Assembly (NCBI RefSeq): GCF_003859945.1
Contig: NZ_RQYM01000002.1
Coordinates: 62,001 to 126,000, forward strand
Origin: Leucobacter sp. OH1287
GTDB lineage: Bacteria; Actinomycetota; Actinomycetes; Actinomycetales; Microbacteriaceae
Length of the DNA: 64,000 bases
Reading direction: 5' to 3'
Shown: one piece after another, positions 35,128-43,290 of the stretch
How the letters are laid out: every line of letters starts with the position of its first letter
Numbering within the stretch: the stretch's first letter is position 1
Position numbers and translations under genes: made by a program
The notes under the pieces: model-generated
Told to the model about the DNA's origin: nothing
The model's database searches: none
The model's input: the letters and a program-made list of their open reading frames with translations, nothing else

Positions 35128-36387
35128 CTAGCTCTGCTGCCAGAGCGTGCTGATCGGCAGCGCCCAGAGCCGCTCCCCAAACGGCAGCGCCTTGGTGCCG
35201 GTGTAGAGAACTATGCCGTTCTTGAAGCACGAGCCAGCTTTGTCACGCAGTGTTGTTAGGCCCTTAAAGTGGCTGTTGTTGATGCTGCTTGTTGCTTTCA
35301 CATCCAGCCCCACAATCTCGCGTTGCGGGTTTTGCAGTATCACATCAACCTCGTTGCCGCGGCTGTCACGCCAGTGCCGCAGCTGGTAGTCCACCTCGGA
35401 CCAGCTCTGCTGTTTAGCCAGCTCAGTCACAACAAACGCCTCCAGCGTACCGCCCGCGAGAGCGCTAGAAATATCGAGCTCAAGACCTGTGGCGCTAACC
35501 CCGTTCAACATTGCGGCGATGCCCGGATCCACCAGCGAAACTTTGGGTTTTTTGATGCTGCGATCGGTGATGTTGTTGCCCCACGCGGGGAGCTCGCGGA
35601 GCAGAAAAACGTTCTTTAGTGCGGAGACATAACCGGGGACGCTGCGTTCGGGGATGTTGAGCGCCCGTGCGGTGTTTGCTGCAACGAGTTCGCTGGCTGG
35701 TTGGGCCGCGAACAGCTGTAAAAGCGGCTCAATCCGGTCAGTGTGCTGTAGCCTAAACGTTTCAGAAACGTCCTTCGAAATCACCAGGTCGATGTAGTTC
35801 TGCAGCCAGCGACGCTGCTGTCTCGGCGCCCAGTCGACGATCTCGGGGAAACGGGTTGCTGTCGCCAGCTCAAAATACTCACTGCGTTTCACGGGCGAAT
35901 CGGCAGGCAGTTGCCTGCTCTCGCTAAGCTCCCATGCGAAACGCCCAAAATCCTCGTTCACTCCCAGCATCTCGCCCTGACTGAGCGGGTTGACGTTGAT
36001 CGTCTGCATTCTGCCCGCGAGACTTTCGGCGTTTCTCGGTAGCTGCATTAGGTTTGCGGATCCGGTAATTACGAACCTGCCGGGTTTCCGGTTTCTCTCA
36101 AGCGCCGCCTTAATCGACAGCAGCAGTTCAGGAACCCGTTGAATCTCGTCGATTGCGAGCGTGCCCTCGGGATACTGGTCTGCGAAACCGTCAGGGTCCG
36201 CCTGCGCTGCTGCTCGCACGCTGTTGTCGTCAAGGTTGACGAACCGGGAAGCAGAGTCTTTAAGCAGCTGATGAACCAGAGTTGTTTTACCGGACTGACG
36301 CGCACCAGAAATCGCCGTCACCGGCGAGACTGCCTTTGCATCCAGGGCAATCGGCAGAATATTGCGTCTAATCAGGGAGCTGCTCAT
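35128..36387 (-). CDS. ATP-binding protein of the AAA/DUF4143 family
   Basis: A 419-residue protein. Walker A is GARQSGKTTLV near residue 30, Walker B is LAIDEIQRVPEL, and the sensor is FVITGSANL. The C-terminal DUF4143 domain includes GNEVDVIL-like residues (RGNEVDVILQN) typical of its nuclease-like fold. These ATPases are widespread, mostly orphan genes of unknown function, often in accessory DNA. The ATG is 6 nt from a TAGAAT box, and a 22-bp tandem repeat array lies just upstream. Confidence 0.88.
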   Translation of the reverse strand: MSSSLIRRNILPIALDAKAVSPVTAISGARQSGKTTLVHQLLKDSASRFVNLDDNSVRAAAQADPDGFADQYPEGTLAIDEIQRVPELLLSIKAALERNRKPGRFVITGSANLMQLPRNAESLAGRMQTINVNPLSQGEMLGVNEDFGRFAWELSESRQLPADSPVKRSEYFELATATRFPEIVDWAPRQQRRWLQNYIDLVISKDVSETFRLQHTDRIEPLLQLFAAQPASELVAANTARALNIPERSVPGYVSALKNVFLLRELPAWGNNITDRSIKKPKVSLVDPGIAAMLNGVSATGLELDISSALAGGTLEAFVVTELAKQQSWSEVDYQLRHWRDSRGNEVDVILQNPQREIVGLDVKATSSINNSHFKGLTTLRDKAGSCFKNGIVLYTGTKALPFGERLWALPISTLWQQS

Positions 36388-36402: not shown

Positions 36403-36490
36403 ACCTTCGTTGCGGTTCTGCCACCTTCTCGTTGCGGTTCTGCCACCTTCTTGTTGCGGTTTTGCCACCTTCTCGTTGCGGTTCTGCCAC
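36403..36490. repeat. 22-bp tandem repeat array, four units
   Basis: Units begin at 36409, 36431, 36453 and 36475 with core GTTGCGGTTCTGCCACC followed by TTCTC-like spacers. A partial unit precedes them. Only single-base differences are seen. The array occupies most of the gap between the DUF4143 ATPase and the M20 hydrolase genes. The core is almost the same as the repeats at 13439-13545. Confidence 0.9.
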
Positions 36491-36514: not shown

Positions 36515-37762
36515 TTATTCGCGATCCAGCCCGTCTTTTGCGAGCTTCGTGACAACACCTGCCAGGTGTGCTAAACCGGCGAGCATGTCCTTGTCGCTTG
36601 TGTACTCGCGCAGGTTGTGCGAAATACCAGAAACGCTCGGCACAAACAGCATCACGGTTGGCGCCACATCCTTCATATTGGTTGAGTCGTGCCCAGCCAC
36701 CGTCATAACCCGGTCGTGAGTGAGCCCGAGCTCTGCGGCAGCCTCGCGTGCGAGTGCGATCCCGTTCTCAGGGTACGGGTTTTGCTCCCACCGGTGCTCG
36801 CCGATTATCTCAATCTCAAGCCGGTCACGCTCAGACACCTCAGCGATTGTTTTTTCGAGGCTCGCAAAGGCTGCGTCCAAAACCTCGGTGTGTGGTGAAC
36901 GAAGATCAATCAGCAGCGTCACCTCGCTCGCAACAACAACCGGCGAGTTAGGGTAGACGTTAATCTCACCGCAGGCGGTGTGCAGGTCACCCGGAGCAAA
37001 ATCATCAACCAGGTCGCGCGCCGCTGTGATGAGCCTGGCAGCACCCAGCAGGGCGTCCCTGCGATCCGCCATCTCGGCTGCGCCGCTGTGAGCCTGATCG
37101 CCGGTAACCCGCACCTCAAGCTTGTGCGCGCCCCAGGTGGCGTTAACCAGACCGATTGTGACACCGTCAGCCTCCATGCTGCGACCCTGCTGCACGTGGA
37201 TCTCCGCGTACGAGGCAACCTCCGGCATCGTAAAATCGCCCAGCTCGTGCAGCTTACCGAGCGCCTCGTAAACGGTGACCCCGCTGCGATCCGCCGTGTT
37301 CAGCGCGGTCTCAAGCGGCAGCTTACCGGTGAAAACGCTGCTGCCCATCATCGACGGTTTAAACCTGGAACCTTCCTCGTTAAACCAGTTAACAACCGCG
37401 AGATTGTATTTTGCCTCGCCGCTCTCACCGAGCTCGGCGGCAGCCCGCAGGCAGGCGTGCGCGCTCGCCAACACACCGTAGGCGCCGTCGAACCGGCCGG
37501 CGGTCGGCTGCGAGTCAAGGTGTGAACCGGTCAGCACATACGGTGCCCCGGGAACCAGCTCCAGCAGTCCATACTGGTTGCCGATAGCGTCCCGCTCAAC
37601 CCGAAAACCATGCTCTGTCAGCAGACTCTCAAACCACTTGCGCTGCTCGCCGTCTGCGGCGGTGCCTGCCTGTCGATCCACCCCGTGCGTGCCGGGAACC
37701 GCGCCAAACTGCGACAGTTCATCCCAGTGCCGCAGGAAATCCTTATCAGCTATTGCGTTCAC
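36515..37762 (-). CDS. M20-family amidohydrolase (hydantoinase/carbamoylase type)
   Basis: A 415-residue cytoplasmic metallohydrolase of the N-carbamoyl-amino-acid/allantoate amidohydrolase group. Di-metal ligands are visible in TGSHLDSQPTAGRFDGAYG (His, Asp), NEEGSRF (Glu pair) and EIHVQQGRSMEA (His). HDSTNMKDVAPTVMLFVP holds the last His. The GTG start has a perfect GGAGGA five bases upstream. It is the last gene of the MHS operon, 37 bp after the ThDP enzyme gene. Substrate is likely an N-carbamoyl or ureido compound; exact identity is not readable. Confidence 0.88.
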   Translation of the reverse strand: MNAIADKDFLRHWDELSQFGAVPGTHGVDRQAGTAADGEQRKWFESLLTEHGFRVERDAIGNQYGLLELVPGAPYVLTGSHLDSQPTAGRFDGAYGVLASAHACLRAAAELGESGEAKYNLAVVNWFNEEGSRFKPSMMGSSVFTGKLPLETALNTADRSGVTVYEALGKLHELGDFTMPEVASYAEIHVQQGRSMEADGVTIGLVNATWGAHKLEVRVTGDQAHSGAAEMADRRDALLGAARLITAARDLVDDFAPGDLHTACGEINVYPNSPVVVASEVTLLIDLRSPHTEVLDAAFASLEKTIAEVSERDRLEIEIIGEHRWEQNPYPENGIALAREAAAELGLTHDRVMTVAGHDSTNMKDVAPTVMLFVPSVSGISHNLREYTSDKDMLAGLAHLAGVVTKLAKDGLDRE

Positions 37763-37798: not shown

Positions 37799-39499
37799 CT
37801 AGGCAATCTCGCCGCTCGCGGGCGGCATCACCTCGGGGCTAATTTTGATGTGGATCAGCGCGGGCACCGCCGCAGCCAGGCACCGTTCAAGTGCCCCAGC
37901 AAACTCTGCGGTCTGGTTGACGCTCTCGCCGTGGCCGCCGTGGGCGCGCATAATCTCCGCAAAGTCTGGGTTTGTCATGCGGGTGCCGGACGGTCTGCCG
38001 GGATAGTGCTTCTCCTGGTGCTGCACAATCGTGCCGTAGATACCGTTGTCAATAACAATAATCACAGGTTTTGCGCCGTGCGCAAAAGCGGTCGCGATCT
38101 CTTGGCCGTTCATCAGATAGTCGCCGTCACCGCAGACGGCAACACAGTGTCGATCCGGGGTGATCAGGCTGGCTGCAACCGCTGCCGGAACCGCAAGCCC
38201 CATCGCGCCGTTACGGGCACCAACCAGGCTGGCTGCGCGGTTGTGTTTAATAAAACGGTGTGCCCAGATGGTTGCGTTGCCAGCGCCGAAGGTGAGCGTA
38301 GCCTCGCCCGCCAGTTGGCGATCCAGCTCCGCAAACACATCGCCGAGATCCACGCCGGAAGCCTCGTTGGAGCTGGGGGTGGCGGGAGCGGCGGCGTTCA
38401 CGCTCGCGTCGGAGCGGTGTGCGGCGAAGCGCTCCTGATCCGCGCGGCAAGACTTTAGCCACTCGCTGTCTCGGTTGCCGGTTAGCTCAGCGGCATCTAG
38501 CTGGGTAAGCGCTGCTACGAAGGCGGCGGGTTTTGCACGCAGTTGCAGATCCGCTCTGCCACTGTGCCCGAGCGCTGCACTGTCGCCTGTGACGGTCACG
38601 GTTTTCGTGTCTAGCCCGAGGGTGTAGCCGTCGCTCAGCACATCGGTTCTGCCGCAGCCAATAAAAATGTGCAGGTCGGCGGCAGCGTAGTTGTTAGCGA
38701 CCGCGTCAGCCCTGCCGTAGCCGAGCCAGCCAGCGTATGCTGGGCTTTGGTGAGGAACCGCATCGTATGCTCGCCAATCCTGGAAGACTGGGATACCCGC
38801 CAGCTCCGCAAACGACGCCAGCTGTTCACCGCAGCCGGTGTGCCAGCCATCACCGCCAACAATAAATGCCGGTCTGGTTGCCTCACCAAGCAGCTGCGCC
38901 AGTTCGCCAAGCTGCTCGGAGGAGACGGATCCACCACCCGCTCTGCCACCAAACCTTGCCGGGGTGATCGCGCGGGGATTGGTGACCTGTTTAACCAGAA
39001 TATCCTCAGGCAGGCCAACAACCACCGGCCCTGGTCTGCCAGCGGCGGCGATGCGCAGCGCCTCAGCGGTTAGTTCTCCGGCGCGTTCAGGGTCGTCGAT
39101 TGTGATGACGCGCTTCGCGGTTGTGCCAAACCAGCCCGCAAGGCTGAACTCCTGAAAAGCCTCACGCTCGCGATCCGCCACCGGAATCAGCCCCACGAAC
39201 AACACCAGCGGGGTTGCGTCCTGCCAGGCGGTGTGGATAGCGATCATCGCGTTGGCTGCTCCCGGCCCGCGGGTCACCATCGCAACTCCCGGGACACCGG
39301 TCAGCCGCCCCTCGGCAAGCGCCATAAACCCGGCGCCGCCCTCCTGGCGGCAAACAACGGTCTCGATTGTGGAATCGTGGAGGCCGTCAAGCACGTCCAG
39401 GTAGCTTTCGCCGGGAACGGCATAAACCCGCTTCACCCCAAAGTTTTCGAGGGTTTTTACAATGTGGTGCCCCGCAGATAGGGTCTGCTGCTCTGTCAT
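37799..39499 (-). CDS. Thiamine-diphosphate-dependent enzyme (acetolactate synthase/decarboxylase-like)
   Basis: This 566-residue enzyme has the three-domain ThDP layout. The N-terminal pyrimidine domain carries the activating Glu in VVCRQEGGAGFMALAEG and RGPGAANAMIAIHTAW. The C-terminal domain carries the ThDP motif GDGDYLMNGQEIATA, ending in an Asn-containing NGIYG loop. The Glu excludes glyoxylate carboligase, which lacks it. The reaction probably decarboxylates a 2-oxo acid or condenses it. ATG 39499 is preferred over GTG 39502. It lies within the PucR-linked operon. Confidence 0.88.
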   Translation of the reverse strand: MTEQQTLSAGHHIVKTLENFGVKRVYAVPGESYLDVLDGLHDSTIETVVCRQEGGAGFMALAEGRLTGVPGVAMVTRGPGAANAMIAIHTAWQDATPLVLFVGLIPVADREREAFQEFSLAGWFGTTAKRVITIDDPERAGELTAEALRIAAAGRPGPVVVGLPEDILVKQVTNPRAITPARFGGRAGGGSVSSEQLGELAQLLGEATRPAFIVGGDGWHTGCGEQLASFAELAGIPVFQDWRAYDAVPHQSPAYAGWLGYGRADAVANNYAAADLHIFIGCGRTDVLSDGYTLGLDTKTVTVTGDSAALGHSGRADLQLRAKPAAFVAALTQLDAAELTGNRDSEWLKSCRADQERFAAHRSDASVNAAAPATPSSNEASGVDLGDVFAELDRQLAGEATLTFGAGNATIWAHRFIKHNRAASLVGARNGAMGLAVPAAVAASLITPDRHCVAVCGDGDYLMNGQEIATAFAHGAKPVIIVIDNGIYGTIVQHQEKHYPGRPSGTRMTNPDFAEIMRAHGGHGESVNQTAEFAGALERCLAAAVPALIHIKISPEVMPPASGEIA

Positions 39500-39556
39500 C
39501 ACTCTTGCTTTCTGGCTTTATCGGTTAGTTATTGGTTTTGGGTGGTTGTTCGGTGG

Positions 39557-40651
39557 TTAGCGCTTATCACCGGTTGCTAACACCGTCCGCAGGTTGTCGC
39601 AGCTGCTGATGCGCTCGAGCAGCTCTGGCTCCCGCTCATCGGACTGCTGTGCGTGAGCGATAAGGCCGCGACTTATCTGCTCGGGTTTCAACGCGACAAC
39701 GCCGTTGTCGTTACAAACTATTATGTCCCCCTGGTGGATCACAGCACCGCCGATCTCAACCGCTCCGCCGTGGCAGTCATCGCTTAAGGATCCGAGCCGC
39801 TTAGTTGTACGGCAGCTGAAGCCCGTCGCAAACACAGGTAGTCGAGAGGCTAAAGCCAGGAGGTTAGAGCGGTCGGTTACCGGCCCGTCGACGACAATCG
39901 CGGCGAGCCGCTGTTTCACGGCTGTGGCAGCTGTGACCGCGCCGATTGGGGCGTGAAGCCCGCCTTTTACGCGCAGCACCAACACCTCGCCCGGCTGGGC
40001 AGCGACCAGCGCGCGGTTAACGGCGATTGCGTCCGGTTCGGATAAATCAACGGTGCGGGCGGTGCCGACTACCTGGTCGCCGCTGCCGACGCGGAAGATC
40101 GCGGGGGAGCAGAAACCGGTGTCGAGGAAGTGGCCGAGAGTGGAGGCGTCAACCGTTTGCAGCAGCCGGATTGCTTCGGCGGTGCTTAGACCGGCCTCAC
40201 TGGGCGAGCCCGCCTCAGTGGCATCCGCCGAACCAACACCGCCAGCCTCACCAGCGCCAACCGGCACCTCGTAGCTTGGCTGCTTAACCCGCGCAACGCA
40301 CTCAACCTCCAGCGGAATGTCCCAGATTCCCACACAGACGGTTGTGCGCGCGGGTTTGCTCTCGCTAAAGAACTGCTCATATACCCGGTTGAAGGTGTCG
40401 CGCTGTGCGGGGTCGGTGAGGTAGGCGTTAACCTTCACCACCCGGTCAAGGTCACTGCCGGCAGCGCGCAGAGTCGCCCGCAGGTTCGTTAGGCACTGCC
40501 TGACCTGGTCCGCAAAATCAGTCGGGGTGACCCCGCTCGCGTCGCTTGGCACCTGGCCGGTTGTGTAGACAACGTCACCGGCGACAACCGCCTGCGAGTA
40601 GGGGCCGATCGGGGTGGGCAGTTCCGGGATGCCGGTTATTCTCTCGATCAT
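39557..40651 (-). CDS. Fusion of a RidA-type deaminase domain and an RraA-like domain
   Basis: The N-terminal 120 or so residues are a RidA/YjgF domain: PIGPYSQAVVAGDVVYTTGQVP, with the substrate Arg in KPARTTV and the catalytic Glu in LEVECVARV. A Gly/Ala/Ser linker of about 35 residues (with SEAG/TEAG repeats) joins an RraA/HMG-aldolase-like domain: GQVVGTARTVDL, HAPIGAVTAATAVKQ and IVVDGPVTDRSN. In classical RraA aldolases the last motif is DGxVRD; here the Arg is Thr. ATG 40651 is chosen at the domain start; a GTG-free extension to 40690 would overlap the transporter gene. Likely role: imine/enamine hydrolysis plus oxo-acid processing. Confidence 0.88.
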   Translation of the reverse strand: MIERITGIPELPTPIGPYSQAVVAGDVVYTTGQVPSDASGVTPTDFADQVRQCLTNLRATLRAAGSDLDRVVKVNAYLTDPAQRDTFNRVYEQFFSESKPARTTVCVGIWDIPLEVECVARVKQPSYEVPVGAGEAGGVGSADATEAGSPSEAGLSTAEAIRLLQTVDASTLGHFLDTGFCSPAIFRVGSGDQVVGTARTVDLSEPDAIAVNRALVAAQPGEVLVLRVKGGLHAPIGAVTAATAVKQRLAAIVVDGPVTDRSNLLALASRLPVFATGFSCRTTKRLGSLSDDCHGGAVEIGGAVIHQGDIIVCNDNGVVALKPEQISRGLIAHAQQSDEREPELLERISSCDNLRTVLATGDKR

Positions 40652-40661
40652 GCGCTGCTCG

Positions 40662-41999
40662 CTAGCTGGTCTGTTTGCCGACCGATTCAAGTGACTTCAG
40701 GCGGTTATCGCTGAGCAGGAACAGGGCGATCAGTGACAGCAGCGCTGCGAATCCGATATACCAGGCAACAGATGCGCTCTCACCGGTTAGTTCAAGCAGC
40801 CACACGGTTACGGCCGGGGTAATTGCAGAACCGAGCAGACCGGAGAGCATGTAAGCGACCGACAGGCCAGAGTAGCGGATCTTCGAACCAAACAGCTCGG
40901 CGAGGAAGGTCGCGATCGGGCCATAGTTTGCGCAGAACGCGATCATCATCAGCGAGTAGGCGACGAACACGAGAGCCGGGGTGCCGGTGTTGAGCAGCCA
41001 GAAGAAGGGGAACGCGAGCACAATCTCGGCGATAATACCAGCCGCGATAATCTTCTTGCGGCCGATCCGGTCCGACAGCTTGCCAAATAGCGGGATCGCA
41101 AACAGCGCGATTACACACGCGGTCAAAACCGCCCACAGCATCAGATCCTTGCTGTAACCAATCTCGTCGGTGCCGTAGGCGACACCGGAGGCAACCAGCA
41201 GGGTGAAGGTGGATCCGGTCGACAGGGTTGCAACGCCGCCGAGCAGCACCTGCTTCCAATAGTGGCGGATCAGGTAGGCAAACGGCAGTTTAGCTTTGGC
41301 GCCCTCGTCACGCACCTGCTTGAAGCTTGGGGTTTCCTCCATCGTCACACGGATGTAAATACCGACGGCGACGAGCAGCGCAGACAGCAGGAACGGGATC
41401 CGCCAACCCCAGCTGAGCAGCGCCTCATCGGAGACGCTGCCGATAATAATCAGGAACGCCAGGTTCGCGATCAGTGTGCCGGCGGGCACACCAACCTGCA
41501 CGAGTGAGCCATACCAGCCGCGCTTGTGGGCGGGGGAGTGTTCAACGGTCATCAGCACCGCGCCACCCCACTCGCCGCCGAGCGCGAGACCCTGAATCAG
41601 GCGCAGCGCCAGCAGAATCAGCGGGGCTGCAATACCGATTGCGTAGTAGTCGGGCACGAGGCCGATGCCGACCGTGGCGCCGCCCATCATCAGCAGTGAG
41701 ATGAGCAGCATTGATTTGCGGCCCAGTTTGTCGCCGAAGTGGCCGAAAATAACCGCGCCAACAATGCGGGCAACATAGGCGGACGCGAAGGTGAGGAAGG
41801 CGACGATTGTGCCAACCGCGGGCGGCAGTTCCGGGAAGAACACCCGGTTGAAAACGAGCGCGGACGCGGTGCCGTAAAGAAACAGGTCATACCATTCAAC
41901 GGTTGTGCCGATAACGCTGGCAATCGCGATTTTCCGCATTTTGCTCTGGTCGAGCGCTGCACCCTGATTCGGCGCTTTTGCCGAGGCTGGTGATGTCAT
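40662..41999 (-). CDS. MHS-family MFS transporter (metabolite:H+ symporter)
   Basis: A 445-residue twelve-helix carrier. ASVIGTTVEWYDLFLYGTAS at the first helix, GHFGDKLGRKSML in loop 2-3 and RLIQGLALGGEWGGAVLM in TM4 are signatures of the metabolite:H+ symporter group (shikimate, proline/betaine, alpha-ketoglutarate carriers). It would import the substrate of the downstream catabolic enzymes. ATG 41999 has GGAGGTAA upstream. It is the first gene of the operon, divergent from the PucR regulator. Confidence 0.93.
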   Translation of the reverse strand: MTSPASAKAPNQGAALDQSKMRKIAIASVIGTTVEWYDLFLYGTASALVFNRVFFPELPPAVGTIVAFLTFASAYVARIVGAVIFGHFGDKLGRKSMLLISLLMMGGATVGIGLVPDYYAIGIAAPLILLALRLIQGLALGGEWGGAVLMTVEHSPAHKRGWYGSLVQVGVPAGTLIANLAFLIIIGSVSDEALLSWGWRIPFLLSALLVAVGIYIRVTMEETPSFKQVRDEGAKAKLPFAYLIRHYWKQVLLGGVATLSTGSTFTLLVASGVAYGTDEIGYSKDLMLWAVLTACVIALFAIPLFGKLSDRIGRKKIIAAGIIAEIVLAFPFFWLLNTGTPALVFVAYSLMMIAFCANYGPIATFLAELFGSKIRYSGLSVAYMLSGLLGSAITPAVTVWLLELTGESASVAWYIGFAALLSLIALFLLSDNRLKSLESVGKQTS

Positions 42000-42150: not shown

Positions 42151-43290
42151 ATGGCACAAAACGCTAATTCAGATCAGTGTGTCTCTCCGCAGTGGCGCGA
42201 GGTGCTGCAGCAGCTGGCGGGCGATATTGACGAGCTGGTCGCCGACTTCAGCGGGCGGCTCAGCCAGCTAGAGGGCGGCTACAGCAGGGTCGACGACGCC
42301 GACATTCAGGCAACTGCACACAGCACCCTCAGCTACCTGCTCGCGCTCCTGATGGGCAATAAAATCCCCGATGAGCTAGTGGATCTGCCCAGACAAATCG
42401 GGATTAAAAGGGCGCGGCAAAGGGTCCCGCGTGAGCAGCTACTAGAGGCGGTACGGTTCGACTATCCGGTGCTGTGGGGCGGCCTGGTGAAACGGATCGG
42501 CAGCAGCAACCCGGCGCTGCTCGTGGCAAACGCCGAAAAGATTTTAGAGGCGGTGGAGGACTACGCGCAGCAGGTGCAGAAGGCGTTCCTCACCGAACAG
42601 GATACGCTGCGGGAGAATATGCAACGCAGTGAAACCCGAGCCCTGCTAACCCTGCTCGCAACCGAAGAACCCGAGAGCGCCGCCGCCGAGTTTGCGGAAC
42701 AGCAACAGCTACCCCTTCACGGCAGCTACGAACTGATTGTCATCGGGCACGACTATGTGACAACGGCGCGCGCACGGATCCGCCCGCTGCAGCAAACCCG
42801 ACAGCGGTTCATGCTCTGTGACTGGCGAGACGGTGTTGTGCTCGTGCGGCAGATACCCGCGAGCCAGCAGCAACCACACCTGCTCGCCGATGTTGGCGGG
42901 GTTTTAATCACCGACATTGCAGGCCTTGCCGGGCTGCCGCCGGCGGCAAAACTGGCGCGCTCGCTGATCCCGTTCGCAACCAGCCCGAAGCTCTGCACCG
43001 AACACGACCTGTGGCTGCAGGCGGCGGCCGGGGCCATCAACCAGCACACGCCCGGTGTTATCGGCAATGTGCTGCGCAGTCTCGAAAACCTGCCGGAGGG
43101 GGAGCGGACCAGGCTGCTTGAAACCTTCCTTCACTACTGTGAAACCGGGTCGGTGAAAGCTGTTGCCGCCGAATCATATGTGCACCGCAACACCGTGCTG
43201 AACCGGTTGCGCGCCTTCCGCGATCACACCGGCCTCGACCCGACCGTGCCGGTTGATGCGGCGAGGGCGTTGCTCAGTTTGAAGGGTTGA
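42151..43290 (+). CDS. PucR-family transcriptional regulator
   Basis: A 379-residue regulator with a ligand-sensing N-terminal part and a central GGDEF-like degenerate domain. The C-terminal PucR helix-turn-helix is ETGSVKAVAAESYVHRNTVLNRLRAF. PucR proteins regulate purine/allantoin and other nitrogen-compound catabolism and usually activate a divergent operon. That fits the MHS transporter operon on the other strand. An inverted repeat lies in the shared control region. The gene itself appears leaderless. Confidence 0.9.
   Translation: MAQNANSDQCVSPQWREVLQQLAGDIDELVADFSGRLSQLEGGYSRVDDADIQATAHSTLSYLLALLMGNKIPDELVDLPRQIGIKRARQRVPREQLLEAVRFDYPVLWGGLVKRIGSSNPALLVANAEKILEAVEDYAQQVQKAFLTEQDTLRENMQRSETRALLTLLATEEPESAAAEFAEQQQLPLHGSYELIVIGHDYVTTARARIRPLQQTRQRFMLCDWRDGVVLVRQIPASQQQPHLLADVGGVLITDIAGLAGLPPAAKLARSLIPFATSPKLCTEHDLWLQAAAGAINQHTPGVIGNVLRSLENLPEGERTRLLETFLHYCETGSVKAVAAESYVHRNTVLNRLRAFRDHTGLDPTVPVDAARALLSLKG

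Follow-up and report, generated by a model that had tools for sequence, protein, structure and literature searches.

Why should a RidA domain and an RraA-like domain be joined in a single polypeptide, and which reactions might the two halves catalyze? The question is raised by a gene of Leucobacter sp. OH1287, which lies within a stretch of 64,000 nucleotides that we refer to as the window in the following. An earlier note on this DNA knew of no characterized enzyme with such an architecture, and we likewise found no description of a RidA-RraA fusion or gene pair in the open-license papers searched, nor of a cluster that combines RraA with RidA, a hydantoinase or a class II aldolase.

Related arrangements are known for each half. 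In the FAH-RraA (NF009399/PRK12764) and hexulose-6-phosphate synthase-RraA (NF005442/PRK07028) fusions, the enzyme likewise has two domains with the RraA-like one at the C-terminus, but the N-terminal partner is FAH or hexulose-phosphate synthase instead of RidA. Likewise, the 3x-RidA proteins, which are tandem RidA fusions, join RidA to further domains of a trimeric family, albeit to itself and not to another enzyme (PMC4433059). An acidobacterial open frame of 411 amino acids with three tandem RidA-like stretches (L039, 9493-10728) resembles these proteins. The genome of the window also encodes an FAH-RraA fusion, which has the canonical motif DGCVRD and its own long Gly/Ala-rich linker (L001 1309-2970, G000:C7); it therefore contains two different RraA fusions, one of the Arg-type and one of the Thr-type described below.

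The gene in question is composed of the following parts:

39557-40651, minus strand: RidA-RraA fusion gene, 364 amino acids, ATG start (open frame; Pfam PF01042 and PF03737 above cut-off)
40274-40651, minus strand: RidA (Rid family) domain, residues 1-126, with Tyr18, Arg102 and Glu117 present (Pfam, alignment, AlphaFold2)
40187-40273, minus strand: Gly/Ala/Ser/Glu-rich linker, residues 127-155, with pLDDT below 50 and start codons absent beyond residue 129 (frame scan, AlphaFold2)
39560-40186, minus strand: RraA-like domain of the Thr-type subfamily, residues 156-364 (Pfam, alignment)
39872-39889, minus strand: motif DGPVTD, residues 255-260, in which Thr259 replaces the catalytic Arg123 and the metal-ligand Asp is retained (alignment to 3NOJ)

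The frame runs from ATG to TAA over 364 codons with no internal stop. Within it, Pfam places Ribonuc_L-PSP (RidA) at residues 12-121 (E 5.5e-29, above the gathering score) and the RraA-like family PF03737 at residues 182-319 (E 3.2e-21; 76.6 bits against a gathering score of 24.5). AlphaFold2 models two confident domains separated by a disordered linker; its input was a thin alignment of 14 rows, and with a mean pLDDT of 73.6 and a pTM of 0.48, the model is uninformative on the relative placement of the domains. The top Foldseek matches of this model include YabJ/RidA structures (E ~1e-12) and 3NOJ, the HMG/CHA aldolase of P. putida. The earlier note, which had suggested structure prediction as a check, had read the protein as a RidA domain with its key Arg and Glu, a linker, and an RraA-like domain with the motif DGPVTD (D255-G-P-V-T-D260), and each of these parts is borne out. 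Past residue 129, the linker contains no start codon, and both other reading frames through it are interrupted by stops, so that the RraA half cannot be produced separately from the fusion. RNA families were not found in the fusion region, where promoter and terminator scans returned no more matches than expected by chance.

The RidA half has the hallmarks of an enamine/imine deaminase (YjgF/YER057c/UK114; TIGR00004), with which it shares the fold and the Tyr, Arg and Glu residues: Tyr18, Arg102 and Glu117 match the catalytic Arg105/Glu120-type residues and the Tyr, and the catalytic Arg and Glu are those of the Rid imine hydrolases (PMC4433059). It differs from these proteins in its TIGR00004 score of 100.9 bits, slightly under the cut-off of 106.25, in being joined to RraA and in its link to a pathway. 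Its closest relatives are RidA proteins from six actinobacterial genomes of one genus in another family (L103-L108), with 67-70% identity.

The RraA half is more unusual. Its nearest PDB match by sequence, and one of the best by structure, is 3NOJ, and it shares the fold of the HMG/CHA aldolase/oxaloacetate decarboxylase proteins (PF03737). In an alignment that covers only the matched stretch of the 3NOJ sequence, it retains the two metal-binding residues of the aldolase, Asp124 (here Asp260) and Glu199 (here Glu341) (PMC5065237), but Asp102 is replaced by Ala238 and Arg123 by Thr259. In HMG/CHA aldolase, Arg123 stabilizes the pyruvate enolate, and the R123A variant has no detectable aldolase activity (PMC5065237). 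To place this substitution, we refer to 38 RraA domains that were gathered by their likeness to the Thr-type subfamily; the counts therefore hold for its members and not for RraA proteins at large, which include Arg-type copies elsewhere. The Arg123 position holds Thr in 35 of them, Asn in two, Ala in one and Arg in none, whereas Asp124 is kept in all 38 and Glu199 in all 35 domains with letters at this position. In Pseudomonas RraA loci, an automatic and noisy motif census gave the reading RD for housekeeping copies wherever the motif was found. The earlier note had described the motif as altered, which holds for the threonine itself, yet the change is neither local nor specific to the fusion. 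A motif change confined to the fusion protein can be ruled out, as the Thr state extends throughout the subfamily, unfused relatives included.

The curated family models agree with this separation. The fusion lies far under the LigK/PcmE and PRK09262 cut-offs; its RraA half scores 38.4 bits (cut-off 304.5) and 43.2 bits (cut-off 179) with the HMG/CHA aldolase models TIGR02798 and NF006731, and 36.9 bits (cut-off 136) with NF006875, the model for the RNase E regulator RraA. No subfamily member tested reaches the curated NCBIfam cut-offs for RraA-like proteins. On these grounds, we set aside the identification as an RNase E regulator or as a standard HMG/CHA aldolase. Because Arg123 is essential in the characterized enzyme and absent throughout the subfamily, HMG/CHA aldolase activity appears unlikely in the RraA half, and a different reaction, which the earlier note had raised for the second domain, becomes plausible. 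Judged by its sequence, HMG aldolase or oxaloacetate decarboxylase activity would be the less likely outcome of an assay, and an enolate-forming aldol cleavage the least likely reaction of this domain.

The neighboring genes give the fusion a metabolic setting:

40662-41999, minus strand: MFS transporter of the metabolite:H+ symporter type, the first operon gene, ending 10 bp before the fusion (Pfam/NCBIfam; conserved with the RidA/RraA pair)
37799-39502, minus strand: ThDP-dependent enzyme, acetolactate-synthase-like (NF006052/PRK08199; syntenic in L113 and L114)
36515-37762, minus strand: M20 Zn amidohydrolase of the hydantoinase/carbamoylase family (NF006772, above cut-off; syntenic in L113 and L114)
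42151-43290, plus strand: PucR-type regulator (PF13556), divergent from the operon (homolog beside the cassette in L034, L053, L101, L102, L113 and L114)

On the minus strand, the order is thus MFS transporter, fusion, a gap of 54 bp, ThDP enzyme, a gap of 36 bp and M20 amidohydrolase, and this block is presumably transcribed as one unit. Its G+C content of 0.60-0.63 is not unlike that of its surroundings. A homolog of the ThDP enzyme at E 1e-60 is absent from the four other Leucobacter genomes examined, which implies either acquisition of the block in this lineage or its loss from the other four. A tandem repeat of 22 bp (36407-36490; 3.8 copies, 93% matches; unit TCGTTGCGGTTCTGCCACCTTC) is situated in the gap that separates the end of M20 from an ATPase-like gene (35128-36387).

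A search of the whole phylum at E 1e-45 recovered nothing beyond the gene of the window itself, and a looser search was then made within the order. RidA is located immediately upstream of RraA in 19 loci. In two of these, the window and a Pseudoclavibacter chromosome (L034, OU365335), the domains are fused; in the other 17, from actinobacteria and pseudomonads, they are encoded by adjacent genes whose ends touch or overlap. In these unfused loci, a possible start codon for RraA falls within the interval from 7 nt ahead of the RidA stop to the very end of that stop, and 11 of the 17 pairs fit a 4-nt ATGA overlap; from this arrangement, the two genes are probably translationally coupled. The RraA tree and the RidA tree each require separate origins for the two fusions, although a number of deep branches are weak and the RraA domains of both fusions sit on long branches (0.85 and 0.80), the longest in their neighborhood. 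The unfused gene pairs and the two independent fusions together make it likely that RidA and RraA act in consecutive steps of one pathway.

The surroundings of the pair differ between lineages. Agromyces subbeticus (L033/L114) and another member of the family (L113) have the block order of the window with separate RidA and RraA genes, and in L113 and L114, a succinate-semialdehyde-dehydrogenase-like gene follows M20; the two nearest homologs of this gene in the window's genome are located elsewhere. Arthrobacter-type loci have the order MFS-RidA-RraA with PucR and ThDP genes divergent. The six L103-L108 genomes have MFS-RidA-RraA alone, with ThDP and M20 genes missing nearby, so the full pathway would not always be encoded locally. 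In pseudomonads, the order is MFS, class II aldolase, GhrA-like reductase, M20, MFS, RidA and RraA, and in alphaproteobacterial loci, an ornithine-cyclodeaminase-family protein is among the variable neighbors. A whole cassette (MFS, class II aldolase, GhrA, M20, RraA, MFS, RidA and LysR) is found on the conjugative Klebsiella pneumoniae plasmid pKP121-2 (L058), flanked by transposase genes and near clpK heat-survival genes.

A recurring partner of the Arg-less RraA proteins is an amide hydrolase, which lies within 5 kb in 10 of 10 annotated plasmid loci, compared with three of eight Arg-type controls (L134, L136, L141; Fisher p 0.007); as this count is small, post hoc and based on loci chosen for having annotation, we regard the association as a lead and not as proof. 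The hydrolases in question belong to the M20 family (L054, L058, L059, L130, L132), to the carbon-nitrogen hydrolases (L057, L129 and L131, of which L131 additionally has a creatininase-family gene) or to the amidases (L128, L133). The occurrence of non-homologous hydrolases in the same place hints that the compound, and not a single ancestral operon, drives the association.

On this basis, we tentatively favor, at not quite an even chance, the reading that the fusion covalently joins two catabolic enzymes that act one after the other in an undescribed pathway, by which an amide- or carbamoyl-containing compound would be broken down. The MFS protein would import an organic acid bearing an amide or N-carbamoyl group, and the M20 amidohydrolase would strip off the carbamoyl or acyl group, leaving a product that is, or tautomerizes to, a reactive imine or enamine. 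The RidA domain would hydrolyze this intermediate to a 2-oxo acid and ammonia. Via its retained metal site, the Thr-type RraA domain may then cleave, decarboxylate or rearrange the oxo acid without relying on an Arg-stabilized pyruvate enolate, and the ThDP enzyme, in relatives together with the succinate-semialdehyde-dehydrogenase-like enzyme, would complete the breakdown. As Rid proteins (PMC4433059) and RraA proteins (PMC3814787) are both trimers, the fusion could assemble as a matched trimer, which would keep the two activities equimolar and near each other. The substrate class, the order of the steps, the reaction of the RraA domain and the assembly state are all parts that we infer. The proposed order accommodates the hand-over from an imine to an oxo-acid enzyme suggested in the earlier note, which had spoken of channeling; the consecutive steps appear likely, but the long, disordered linker of ~29 residues lends no support to strict physical channeling, as it would provide co-production and proximity and gives no evidence of a tunnel. 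Against our reading, we count the variation of neighboring genes among loci, the lack of ThDP and M20 genes close to the pair in L103-L108, and the absence of an adjacent RidA from some Arg-less RraA loci.

A broader proposal strikes us as conceivable and rather speculative: the Arg-less, mostly Thr-type RraA proteins may constitute an enzyme subfamily of their own, whose reaction would not be aldol chemistry via a pyruvate enolate. One example would be the cleavage of a C-N or C-C bond in an oxo or hydroxy acid that carries a ureido or amido group. Together with RidA and an amide hydrolase, they would form a widespread, undescribed catabolic pathway, of which the fusion would represent the two central steps.

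Several other explanations have to be weighed. It is unlikely, though worth serious consideration, that the RidA domain acts in damage control only, removing imine or 2-aminoacrylate by-products of other enzymes, and that the fusion fixes co-expression of two proteins that share no metabolite in turn. Rid proteins are known chiefly as damage pre-emption enzymes (PMC4433059), and the six loci with MFS-RidA-RraA alone are compatible with such a role. A precedent comes from the ong cluster for oxidized chitin, which resembles our block in combining an amide hydrolase and an essential RidA protein in one catabolic cluster, but has a different hydrolase family, separate genes and, in the parts of the report on which we draw, no named RraA; there, the RidA protein OngD is described as essential in vivo, with its role unexplained and without deaminase activity on the amino-sugar acid of the pathway (PMC9537276). 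The essential RidA protein of this amide-hydrolase pathway also fits our own reading. Against mere damage control, the genome of the window already encodes a further, stand-alone Rid protein, and the pairing of RidA with the same RraA subfamily as adjacent, overlapping genes in two phyla is more specific than housekeeping would call for.

A ureide operon of the allantoate type, which we consider quite improbable but still a live rival, would assign the M20 protein as allantoate amidohydrolase, let RidA and the Thr-type RraA act on ureidoglycine or ureidoglycolate, and the ThDP enzyme on glyoxylate. Indeed, the M20 protein exceeds the cut-off of the 'allantoate amidohydrolase' subfamily NF006772, yet it matches carbamoylases and unassigned amidases (E ~1e-60) more closely than allantoate amidohydrolase structures (E ~1e-37). 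Similarly, the ThDP enzyme is closer to acetolactate synthase (E 1e-51) than to glyoxylate carboligase (E 1e-26). The PucR-type regulator would fit a ureide route, as would the glyoxylate/hydroxypyruvate reductase A gene of the gamma clusters and the genes for (S)-ureidoglycine aminohydrolase and ureidoglycolate lyase near the Methylobacterium nodulans cassette, but ureide genes adjoin the cassette in this one locus only.

Just as doubtful is a catalytically dead RraA domain that serves RidA as a trimerizing scaffold or regulator. While the loss of both Arg123 and Asp102, the long branches of the two fused domains and the regulatory role of E. coli RraA (PMC3814787) point in this direction, the invariant metal-ligand positions, the recurrence of Thr instead of a random residue in place of Arg, and the location of the pair in metabolic gene blocks argue for an active enzyme. 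Finally, a frameshift joining two genes, the refutation envisaged in the earlier note, is very improbable: the few-base overlap in unfused relatives means that a single indel error could merge truly separate genes, but the typical, startless linker with stops in both other frames and the independent Pseudoclavibacter fusion speak against it.

The fusion bears on both of its families. RraA-like genes are routinely annotated as '4-hydroxy-4-methyl-2-oxoglutarate aldolase' or 'RNase regulator', and as the Thr-type subfamily does not have the key residue of the aldolase, these annotations are probably incorrect in its case. For RidA, the recurrent pairing with amide hydrolases offers a concrete pathway in which to seek a dedicated, and not merely protective, role, which could be tested with the single fused protein or in a growth screen. 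Lastly, the occurrence of Arg-less RraA proteins beside amide hydrolases in several bacterial groups suggests a breakdown pathway that has so far not been described.
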